The notes under the pieces are model-generated. The model ran no database searches. It was not told where the DNA came from and saw only the letters and a list, made by a program, of their open reading frames with translations. A stretch of DNA of 64,000 nucleotides from Microcyclospora pomicola (taxonomy: Eukaryota; Ascomycota; Dothideomycetes; Capnodiales), in NCBI GenBank assembly GCA_002786065.1, contig NHNY01000015.1, forward strand, positions 413,095 through 477,094. Direction: 5' to 3'. Of this stretch, positions 61,467-64,000 are shown piece by piece (position 1 is the first letter of the stretch; the number at the start of each line of letters is the position of its first letter). The translations under genes were made by a program, and so were the position numbers.

Positions 61467-62286
61467 AAGATTGAGACTGAGCGATGTGTCGTCAATAGGG
61501 TAGTGGCGATCAAGCGTGCCTATATTAACAAGTATCACCCGAGTGATGACTCGGTGGCAAGGCACTTGGTCGATCCAGAGACCCAGACCCTTCAAGACTT
61601 GGACAAAGATCATCTCTAACCAAGTTATTAGCAAATGCACCTGCTCGTTCCCTCCATTATCACCGACGAGTATCGTTGGTATTGGAATTACCCCAGCAGC
61701 TGCAAAATCAACTCTTAAAGACTGGGACTTCGACTGGGAATTTCCTGGAGACATTACTCCAGTATCTAACACCGCCATGAGCAATTCTCGAGCGGATCGT
61801 GCAAAGCCAAGCTATCCAGTACATTCTAGGCCCACAATGCAATCTGTCGTGGACCACGATCCTCCAGTGGTCGATAAAGGTACACCACAGAAGCACGCAA
61901 AACTCAGCTTCCGACAACACAAAGTCACACAGCTGGAGCGTGCTACTCAGAGCCGCTTGAAGCAGTCCGACCGTCCTGGAAACAAGTCAGATAACCACGG
62001 AAAAGGAAAATCCGGAAGAGGAAAAAAGCATCACGAGAACATTGTGGAGGATCAAGCATCCAGATTCGAAGCTCTGGAGGCGCAGTTGCGAGGATTAACC
62101 GAGCAGTATGCGTACGCATTGCACCAACCACTAACAATGGATCACGAGAGGTATGCCAGCATGCCAGAACCACGTCCAATCCAGGAATCGTATATACACG
62201 ATGTCGAAGATAGTGCGCAATGGGTGCATGACCATTACGGGCCCAACGGAGAGGTTATGTTGCTAACGCGGAGGTCGGGGGTGTGA
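61467..62286 (+). CDS. Orphan coding region, structure unresolved, ending at transposon
   Basis: Two pieces in different frames look coding. First, 61467-61619 reads KIETERCVVNRVVAIKRAY..NKYHPSDDSVARHLVDPE and ends at a TAA. Second, a 256-codon frame at 61516-62286 contains, from about 61680 on, DWDFDWEFPGDITPVSN, a basic block (NKSDNHGKGKSGRGKKHH) and a helix FEALEAQLRGLTEQYAYAL. An undetected splice or a frameshift between them would join both. The second frame stops inside the repeated motif at the transposon boundary, so its true C terminus may have been cut off. No family is recognised. Confidence 0.35.
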
Positions 62287-62307
62287 AATGGACGGGGGTG
62301 TGAAATG
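62276..62307. repeat. Tandem 15-bp duplication at transposon boundary
   Basis: cgggggtgtgaaatg occurs at 62276-62290 and again at 62293-62307, separated by ga. The last CpG of the window is inside the second copy (62293-62294). It may mark the terminal repeat of the element; the partner repeat lies outside the window. Confidence 0.75.
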
Positions 62308-64000
62308 CCAGATTCCAAGCTGCCACCTTCAATGCATGATAACTTCATAACCACTTAATGAAAAGGCTTGATTCTTGGTTTATATGATAGCTAAGAGCTG
62401 TGGCAATAGCTGTTTACAAGATCTTCTGGTGTGGCCTTGTGTGTGGCATGTGGTGCATGTTGGTGCCTTTCTGGCTGGCTTTTCAACTTCTGGTTCTCCC
62501 TCAACTTCTACCAATTGAGTAGGCATGTTTGATACCTGTTCAACTGACAGTGGAATGTCTGATCTGATTGGGCCTCTCTTCCTCTTCTTTCTGATGTGAA
62601 AGGCCTCATTAGCCTGTTGTAGATCATGGACCTGTGCCTGGAACAAGGCAGCTGTTGTAGCCATAATTGTGGCTCCCTTTGACAACTGCTCAATCATGTC
62701 ATATATGGGGGTTGGTGAGCTACTTTGGTGCCTCTGGAGCCTGTGTTTAATGCTTGTAGTCTGCCTAGTGACTTGCAATGCATTATGTGGTGTCTGGGGC
62801 TGCCATGAATGGCTTGATGACTGACTTGATGGCAGAGATATTGGCAATGGATCAAGCCTAGCTAAAACAACCTCTGGATTGAATGGATTGATGCCTGCTC
62901 CTCTGAAACCTGCTTGGATGTTGGCCTTGGTAATTGCCTGTGTATGTGCCATATAGAAACTGTGGATAAATGCCAGTTTATCTATGTGGAATATGTGCCT
63001 CTGGATCAGGCCCTGGTTCTGTTTTGAAAAGGCCTGTTTCAATGGACCAAAACAACCAACATCCATAGGCTGTAATATATGAGATGAATGTGGTGGCATC
63101 CATAACAATATGATGCCTTGATCCTCACAGAATTGCCTAAATTCTGAGGTGGTATGGCTACCATGATTATCCAGAATCAGTAGCCTCTTAGATCCAATTG
63201 TATATGCCTTTGTATGCCTGTCAAAGTGCTGGATCCACTGATATCCAATTTGATCTGTTGTCCAGCCATTTGGGCTCACACTGAATACCCAGTCTGGTGG
63301 TAGGCCTTCAAACCATGCCTTGTTGTATTCCTTGCCTTTGAAGATGATAAATACAGGTATGGCTCTGCCAGTTGCACTGCCACCTTGTATGAGGGTGATC
63401 CACTCAGTATTAGTTGGCTTAATCTGCTTAGGTCTCCCTTCTCCCTCTGTGGCAGTGACTACCTTGGAGGCAGATATCTGGCCCATTTGAAAGCCAGTTT
63501 CATCAAAGTTGTAGATGTCTTCATTCTGGATGCCATACTTGTTGATTGTGTTCCTCACAAGGTCAAACCAGCCTTGTATGATCTGTGGTTGCTCACATAG
63601 CCTTCTCTGGCATTCATATGCCCTACCAAGTCTCACACTGAGCTGTGGTGTCCTTTTTATGAATGTATTGGCCCATTTCATGCCAACTGGTGGTGCACCT
63701 TTGGCCTGGCATATTGAGTCTGCCATGCCTTTGATTATGCCAATTGATGGGGATAATCCCTGCCTATCCAGTTCCAGAATCTTGTTTATTATCACCATCT
63801 CTTCATGTAAATCCAGCCTCTTGTTTTTGACCTTGTAATCTGCCTTTGAAGGTGTTCCATTGATTCTTCTCCAGAGTGTGGTTACAGGGACTTGGTAGGC
63901 AGCTGCACAGGCATTGATGGACTGAAATTGGCCTTGCTTGAAAGCCTGCATTGCAAGGAGAATACTACCTTCTTTTGAGGCCATAATGGATGAAATTGGT
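62294..64000 (-). mobile_element. Pogo/Fot-type Tc1-mariner DNA transposon, partial (right part outside window)
   Basis: Contains an intact transposase gene and its 3' flank. The left end is placed by the duplicated motif at 62276-62307 and by an abrupt change in composition: no CpG dinucleotide occurs from 62295 to the end of the window. The 5' terminal repeat and target-site duplication are not visible. Confidence 0.8.
62380..63984 (-). CDS. Pogo/Fot-family transposase with C-terminal zinc knuckle
   Basis: An uninterrupted frame of 534 aa. Residues 10-43 form a psq-type helix-turn-helix (FQSINACAAAYQVPVTTLWRRING), followed by a CENP-B/Tc5-type DNA-binding region (about 60-130). The DDE_1 catalytic core has Asp161 in NFDETGF, Asp272 in LLILDNHGSH and Asp308 in LQPMDVGCFG, giving a DD35D spacing as in pogo/Fot elements. 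RGAGINPFNPEVVLARL is the usual segment after the core. The last 30 residues contain Cys510-x2-Cys513-x4-His518-x4-Cys523 (CTTCHTQGHTRRSC), a CCHC zinc knuckle. All Arg codons are AGA or AGG because the gene has no CpG. With an intact triad and no stop it could be active or recently so; the start is the first Met of MASKEGS. Confidence 0.92.
   Translation of the reverse strand: MASKEGSILLAMQAFKQGQFQSINACAAAYQVPVTTLWRRINGTPSKADYKVKNKRLDLHEEMVIINKILELDRQGLSPSIGIIKGMADSICQAKGAPPVGMKWANTFIKRTPQLSVRLGRAYECQRRLCEQPQIIQGWFDLVRNTINKYGIQNEDIYNFDETGFQMGQISASKVVTATEGEGRPKQIKPTNTEWITLIQGGSATGRAIPVFIIFKGKEYNKAWFEGLPPDWVFSVSPNGWTTDQIGYQWIQHFDRHTKAYTIGSKRLLILDNHGSHTTSEFRQFCEDQGIILLWMPPHSSHILQPMDVGCFGPLKQAFSKQNQGLIQRHIFHIDKLAFIHSFYMAHTQAITKANIQAGFRGAGINPFNPEVVLARLDPLPISLPSSQSSSHSWQPQTPHNALQVTRQTTSIKHRLQRHQSSSPTPIYDMIEQLSKGATIMATTAALFQAQVHDLQQANEAFHIRKKRKRGPIRSDIPLSVEQVSNMPTQLVEVEGEPEVEKPARKAPTCTTCHTQGHTRRSCKQLLPQLLAII

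Follow-up and report, generated by a model that had tools for sequence, protein, structure and literature searches.

An intact Fot1/pogo-type transposon with a CpG-free interior in Microcyclospora pomicola

Introduction

A transposon poor in CpG is generally taken to be a damaged one. At the end of one contig of Microcyclospora pomicola (NHNY01000015.1) lies a transposon to which this reading hardly applies, as the intact elements are here the depleted ones, and the question is how an open transposase gene came to lie in DNA without CpG. The stretch analysed, referred to as the window, comprises 64,000 nucleotides (C7:413095-477094) of a genome of 58 contigs and 23.37 Mb, and stops at position 64000 because the contig ends there. 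In the titles and abstracts of the open-licence literature we found no account of CpG-free intact fungal transposons.

Results

Extent of the CpG-free stretch

The first-pass annotation of the window had reported no CG dinucleotide from 62295 to the window end, and the count agrees, with 0 CpG against 85.6 expected from base composition. Its further observations, that CpG is frequent in the host genes (positions 1-62294 hold 4212 CpG, rho 0.96) and that TG and CA are abundant without a rise in TA (ratios of 1.71, 1.33 and 0.67 in 62295-64000), are likewise borne out. The second-longest CpG-free gap within the window measures 148 bp. As to the extent, the interior is CpG-free as had been described, but the element itself starts at 62264, with an inverted repeat of which the 31 bases at 62264-62294 carry 4 CpGs.

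Recoding the transposase protein with the codons of seven long ORFs of the window gave 87.6 +/- 6.9 CpG (minimum 69 among 500 draws), and shuffling its own CpG-free codons among like residues gave 24.6 +/- 3.9 CpGs at codon junctions (minimum 10 among 2000 draws). Chance or codon preference as the cause is rejected by both controls.

Structure of the element

The element is a cut-and-paste transposon of the Fot1/pogo type (Tc1/mariner superfamily). Joined from contig pieces of both sides it measures 1829 bp, with the TA counted at both ends (Table 1). The terminal inverted repeats match in 51 of 51 positions and have TA at both outer ends; the 51-bp repeat is present in each of seven intact pieces, and both ends are present together in the full-length dead copies L016 and L017. 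The element has 8 CpGs in all, at positions 4, 6, 13 and 30 and at the mirrored places, and none in the interior. The 534-codon frame, described as intact in the first-pass annotation, is indeed open throughout. D161, D272 and D308, which are invariant in an alignment of 35 rows and have 35 residues between the last two, are the putative catalytic residues. The C-terminal CCHC motif, presumably zinc-knuckle-like, had no match in the domain library; its C510, C513 and C523 are invariant and H518 is conserved in at least 90%. A 256-amino acid open frame (61516-62286, plus strand) runs into the inverted repeat of the element and may be what remains of a gene, or of an old reading frame, interrupted by the insertion.

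Table 1. Features of the element in the window.
Feature	Position	Strand	Basis or remark
Terminal inverted repeat, transposase 3' side	62264..62314	-	51 bp including TA; 4 CpGs at 62267, 62269, 62276 and 62293
CpG-free stretch, element interior up to contig and window end	62295..64000	.	0 CpG
3' untranslated stretch, CpG-free	62315..62379	-	sequence
Transposase, 534 aa, intact	62380..63984	-	open frame
C-terminal CCHC motif (C510, C513, H518, C523)	62416..62457	-	alignment conservation
DDE_1 endonuclease domain, residues 194-360	62905..63405	-	PF03184, E 7.6e-34, 117.2 bits (cut-off 22)
Tc5-type helix-turn-helix, residues 66-114	63643..63789	-	PF03221, 22.1 bits, cut-off 22.2 (borderline)
5' leader, part	63985..64000	-	last 92 bp to the other end read on contigs C32, C35 and C40

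Copies in the genome

The genome contains 37 matches to the transposase protein, seven of which are 100% identical and stop-free over the whole query. These seven intact pieces are all found at contig ends, four entering the element from the 3' side and three from the 5' side, which indicates at least four insertions; since they all stop at contig ends, their identity may partly reflect assembly or repeat collapse. Their use as markers of chromosome ends was dropped, as four and three entries from opposite sides are the pattern of an assembly broken at repeats. On the 3' side four different flanks stand beside identical sequence, which implies recent movement. The element is intact and has probably multiplied recently.

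Seven dead pieces (L016-L020, L024 and L033) were aligned to the intact sequence, leaving aside part of L033 (256 bp, at 76%) and, on C3, a match of 26 residues. Summed over the seven, C-to-T changes are found at 1089 of 1731 CpA sites, at 12 of 1133 CpC and at 9 of 1152 CpT; the dead copies thus show RIP of the CpA type, and their stops are TAG and TAA, as CpA change predicts. The 5 changes at 72 CpG sites are no fair test, because every one of these sites lies within the element ends, which RIP mostly spares (8/63 CpA sites changed at the ends, all from L017 and L018, against 1081/1668 inside). As the differences are almost wholly C-to-T at CpA, the parent of the dead pieces was nearly CpG-free; nine sites differ otherwise, one of them creating an interior CpG in three of the five pieces covering the site. 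A full-length copy with normal CpG content, which the first-pass annotation had named as evidence against its reading, does not occur among the seven intact and seven dead pieces compared, and its view that the intact sequence does not carry CpA-directed RIP is upheld.

Several dead copies among L018, L019, L020, L024 and L033 break off at TG... or ...CA. L020 (element 1-975) and L024 (971-1829) share 5 bp and have the flanks TGTAAGG and CCTTACA; from these junctions they resemble the two parts of a single dead copy into which an LTR element inserted, duplicating 5 bp.

Other transposon families

A second pogo family (633 amino acids, 2133 bp; contigs C21, C33, C49 and C51) has 3 CpG in its 1902-bp ORF, and 9 of the 12 CpGs of the element lie within the outer 50 bp of the ends. 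A Gypsy element on C30, encoding protease, reverse transcriptase, RNase H and integrase in frames of 395 and 1358 amino acids, contains 9 CpG where 379 are expected over the 7.26 kb between the CpG drop and the contig end; of the 93 expected in the 1697 bp that follow pol it has none. Its left edge (C30:232600) was set where CpG drops, the contig stops before its 3' end, and a fourth Gypsy match, on C38, stands outside the comparison. Downstream of pol an antisense open frame of 355 amino acids is present (L075:951-2018, C30, minus strand), partly coinciding with the CpG-free 1697 bp.

Out of 68 reverse-transcriptase matches 21 pieces were examined. Five of them (three intact and two dead, one family) have 0 CpG, and the other sixteen, from four families, have rho of 0.80-1.64. 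The pogo relatives fall apart in the same way, with rho of 0-0.13 in L021, L022, L023, L029, L037, L038 and L040 and of 0.94-1.20 in L030, L031, L032, L034, L036 and L039. In the transposase tree the CpG-poor pieces of the genome are spread over two clades, and a third contains the CpG-normal ones; with a midpoint root and long branches, which were flagged, the number of CpG-poor origins is uncertain. The hAT frame stretches have a CpG rho of 0.83. The six hAT copies L041-L046 are alike over about 700 bp and are located at five contig ends and, for L041, inside a contig; hAT is another recently moved family, with CpG near normal. Two DDE_3 remnants and one MULE remnant have rho of 1.04-1.28 with flanks and 0.87-1.17 for the domain alone. 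The survey does not extend to Copia, for which the RVT_2 model had no match anywhere, controls included. A stop-free pogo-type frame of 675 amino acids with normal CpG (L030:2318-4342, minus strand), the single example of its kind encountered, could represent a domesticated transposase or else an isolated element.

CpG loss as a property of all transposons of the genome is rejected by the CpG-normal reverse-transcriptase, pogo, hAT, DDE_3 and MULE pieces. The CpG-poor trait follows transposon lineages, which belong to more than one superfamily; the ends are spared, and non-coding DNA is affected as well.

CpG decay in dead families

Whether CpG is now being lost can be read from dead families that still bear it. 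In five close sets of other families CpG cells had changed in 29 of 840 cases and CpA in 233 of 974, wholly converted sites escaping this count, so that a marked CpG-type C-to-T signature was not found in these dead copies. CpG changes amount to 10/185, 5/152, 1/225 and 1/114 in the four reverse-transcriptase sets and to 12/164 in L031/L032, where CpC and CpT together show 6/384, an excess of about 5-fold. The distant pair L034/L039 has CpG changes at 7/46. L030, L036 (pogo clade), L062 and L074 (one family) were not used. Over the CpG-bearing dead sets CpA changes amount to 12-36%. RIP largely spares CpG in these families and hardly explains its loss, and the host's own RIP is unsupported as the cause. 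The present decay also looks too slow by itself for a residual CpG of 0-3%, which weakens an account by mutation of methylated sites; this leaves either a faster loss while the elements were active or in earlier hosts, or selection.

Codon usage

Among fourfold sites before G, C is held by 0 of 266 in the three elements and by 290 of 991 in host ORFs, and the arginine codons AGR and CGN are used 117:2 in the elements (with 1105 of the 1358 Gypsy codons) against 107:311 in the host. Two tests bearing on mutation and avoidance pull opposite ways. The NCA excess over the host pattern has a log-odds of 0.74 (95% interval 0.26 to 1.23), where the mutation model predicts 0.78 and pure avoidance 0. 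The excess of T before G at codon junctions has a log-odds of 0.35 (-0.05 to 0.77), where the mutation model predicts 0.94.

Host methyltransferases

Three C5-methyltransferase genes were found in the host. An open frame of 2232 amino acids carries a DNA_methylase domain and gave a phmmer match over residues 152-1060 (E 7.3e-147) to 7r76, which its depositors name DNA repair protein Rad8 and which we take to be the Cryptococcus DNMT5; a SNF2-type ATPase part was recognised by eye after the methyltransferase. By this similarity the frame is DNMT5-like and homologous to the Cryptococcus enzyme. The second gene, with a BAH domain at 30.2 bits (cut-off 30.8), is taken as DIM-2-like on the basis of sequence, and the third may be RID; the match of the latter spans one in-frame stop, perhaps an intron.

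Relatives in other records

The best named relative of the element is 63% identical and comes from a Quercus suber record. For host exportin-T (residues 1-500) the identity to a Quercus suber record, which presumably represents a fungal contaminant, is 89%; Meristemomyces frigidus follows with 81%, and then Teratosphaeriaceae and their kin, which suggests a Mycosphaerellales-like host. Several relatives of the element at about 60% identity are found on contigs of some 1.8 kb, and the second pogo family has relatives in Zymoseptoria, Talaromyces and Aspergillus. A search for close relatives at the DNA level, in viral contigs, genome contigs and plasmids, gave only the distant L048 and L049; the two, at 38% and 41% identity, have a CpG rho of 0.49 and 1.09 in their DNA. 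The arginine share of arginine plus lysine is 0.47 in the element, 0.41 in the second pogo family and 0.43 in Gypsy, and 0.59, 0.59 and 0.63 in L030, L048 and L049. Taken as a soft proxy for CpG, this share has a mean of 0.49 in P0001-P0037 and 0.59 in P0043-P0120 among the matches to the element listed (120 of 1339; P0038-P0042 left out), and for the second pogo family 0.45 in P0241-P0262 and 0.50 in P0263-P0360 among the matches listed (120 of 1298).

Fungal-type transposon sequence is present in L049 (a contig of a Frankia alni MAG), P0254 (a Chlamydiales MAG) and P0002 (Quercus suber); its presence in records labelled as bacteria or oak is presumably due to contamination. In L048 (IMG/VR) pogo frames (1 to about 4.6 kb) are joined to GC-rich DNA with phage-like frames, and this contig is probably chimeric.

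Discussion

Depletion in a distant relative and in an unrelated element, with other families normal, points to a long-acting CG-stripping process on certain transposon lineages. Our leading explanation, to which we assign a probability of about 0.45, is that CpG was lost by transitions under methylation while the elements were active, with selection on the protein. The CpG-poor lineages would have had a long active life under CpG methylation by enzymes of the DIM-2/DNMT5 type; methylated CpGs would have become TpG or CpA, protein selection would have kept arginine as AGR codons, and CpG would have remained only where the transposase must bind the element ends. The CpG-free state would be inherited by the transposon lineage and be older than the RIP damage now visible. 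This is supported by the empty interior (0 of 85.6 expected) with 8 of 8 CpGs in the ends, by the equal depletion of the second pogo family and of Gypsy, by the preference for AGR, by the three methyltransferase genes and by an NCA excess close to the predicted value. Against it stand the little CpG decay in CpG-bearing dead families, where even the 5-fold excess of L031/L032 alone would not lead to 0-3% CpG, the junction excess, which is below prediction, and the six-copy hAT, which keeps its CpG. In the transposons of the related Zymoseptoria tritici, moreover, CG sites are the most methylated and yet are not mutated at high rates, according to the part of that report at hand (PMC8016269).

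A serious and more novel rival is active avoidance of CpG, which we consider possible though less probable. CG maintenance by DNMT5, an activity stated for the Cryptococcus enzyme in the same part of that report (PMC8016269), needs CpG, and CpG-free variants without heritable silencing would outcompete others, new CpGs being selected against. The host has a DNMT5-like gene, CpG is scarce in each of the three families that have several copies with full-length frames, the CpG-bearing reverse-transcriptase and pogo families examined carry stops or, in L030, one lone frame, and a decay as modest as that of the dead copies would leave more CpG than the residue observed; the junction result is compatible as well. 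However, the NCA excess fits mutation with an interval excluding 0, hAT copies have spread with near-normal CpG, several CpG-poor families (L021-L023, L038 and L040) are dead too, and a stop-free reverse-transcriptase frame of 1075 amino acids is present on C1, outside the pieces examined. A CpG-free element would also not be wholly hidden if, as that report says for Z. tritici in the part at hand, dim2 leads to CA methylation too (PMC8016269). The wider proposition, that in filamentous fungi with DNMT5 several unrelated lineages have freed their bodies of CpG and so evade CG-maintenance methylation by stealth, with CpG kept only in the ends to which the transposase must bind, is doubtful, slightly more so than avoidance in this genome.

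Horizontal transfer from one or more fungi with a CpG-directed, RIP-like mutation, in which only CpG-free elements survive, with the present host as mere recipient, seems unlikely. CpG-type signatures have been reported in transposons of Tuber and of some basidiomycetes, in the part of the source at hand (PMC4352252), the element is far less similar than exportin-T to the same source, the Quercus suber records, and CpG loss spares the ends just as RIP mostly does. Functional constraint alone can, however, account for the CpG of the ends; transfer would have to be repeated for the separate CpG-poor lineages, which have degenerate relatives in this genome, and the soft arginine/lysine proxy suggests CpG-poor relatives in many sources. 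The first-pass suggestion that the element came recently from a host with strong CpG loss is weakened, because the more degenerate relatives L021-L023, L037, L038 and L040 have almost no CpG either. That the cause is an assembly artefact, chance or ordinary codon bias is highly improbable: seven of seven intact pieces do stop at contig ends, with an identity that may partly be due to repeat collapse, but the codon controls give far more CpG, the untranslated parts are CpG-free too, and the dead copies located within contigs go back to almost the same sequence.

The visible damage in this genome acts through another dinucleotide, and CpG-bearing families lie dead in it. Such a contrast of two classes within one genome bears on the question whether CG methylation acts on the sequence of transposons through mutation or through selection for escape; if the stealth reading were true, CpG content would mark the families able to stay active.

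The Fot1/Pot2-type pogo elements of ascomycetes have a DDE_1 domain with DD35D spacing, a Tc5-type helix-turn-helix, a single frame of about 530-540 codons, a TA target and inverted repeats of about 50 bp. The Microcyclospora element is like them in the other respects, with a match of borderline score for the helix-turn-helix, and differs in having no CpG outside the inverted repeats. Classical RIP of Pezizomycotina, from CpA to TpA, is the pattern of its dead copies, but as RIP mostly spares CpG in this genome it does not account for the absence of CpG. Z. tritici, in the part of the report at hand (PMC8016269), resembles M. pomicola in having three DNMT genes (dim2, a putative dnmt5 and rid) and mutation of the CpA type, and differs in that CpG-free transposons are not mentioned in that part. 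For M. fijiensis a CpG preference is spoken of in the part of PMC3562529 at hand, where, however, the indices given in the table (TpA/ApT about 2, low CpA+TpG) match RIP of the CpA type. Closest in direction, from CpG to TpG, are the CpG-type C-to-T signatures of Tuber, Microbotryum and Rhizoctonia, described in the parts at hand of PMC4352252 and PMC4014442 on transposon copies and in Rhizoctonia in genes too; M. pomicola differs from these in that its dead copies bear no marked CpG signature and it is the intact sequence that is free of CpG.
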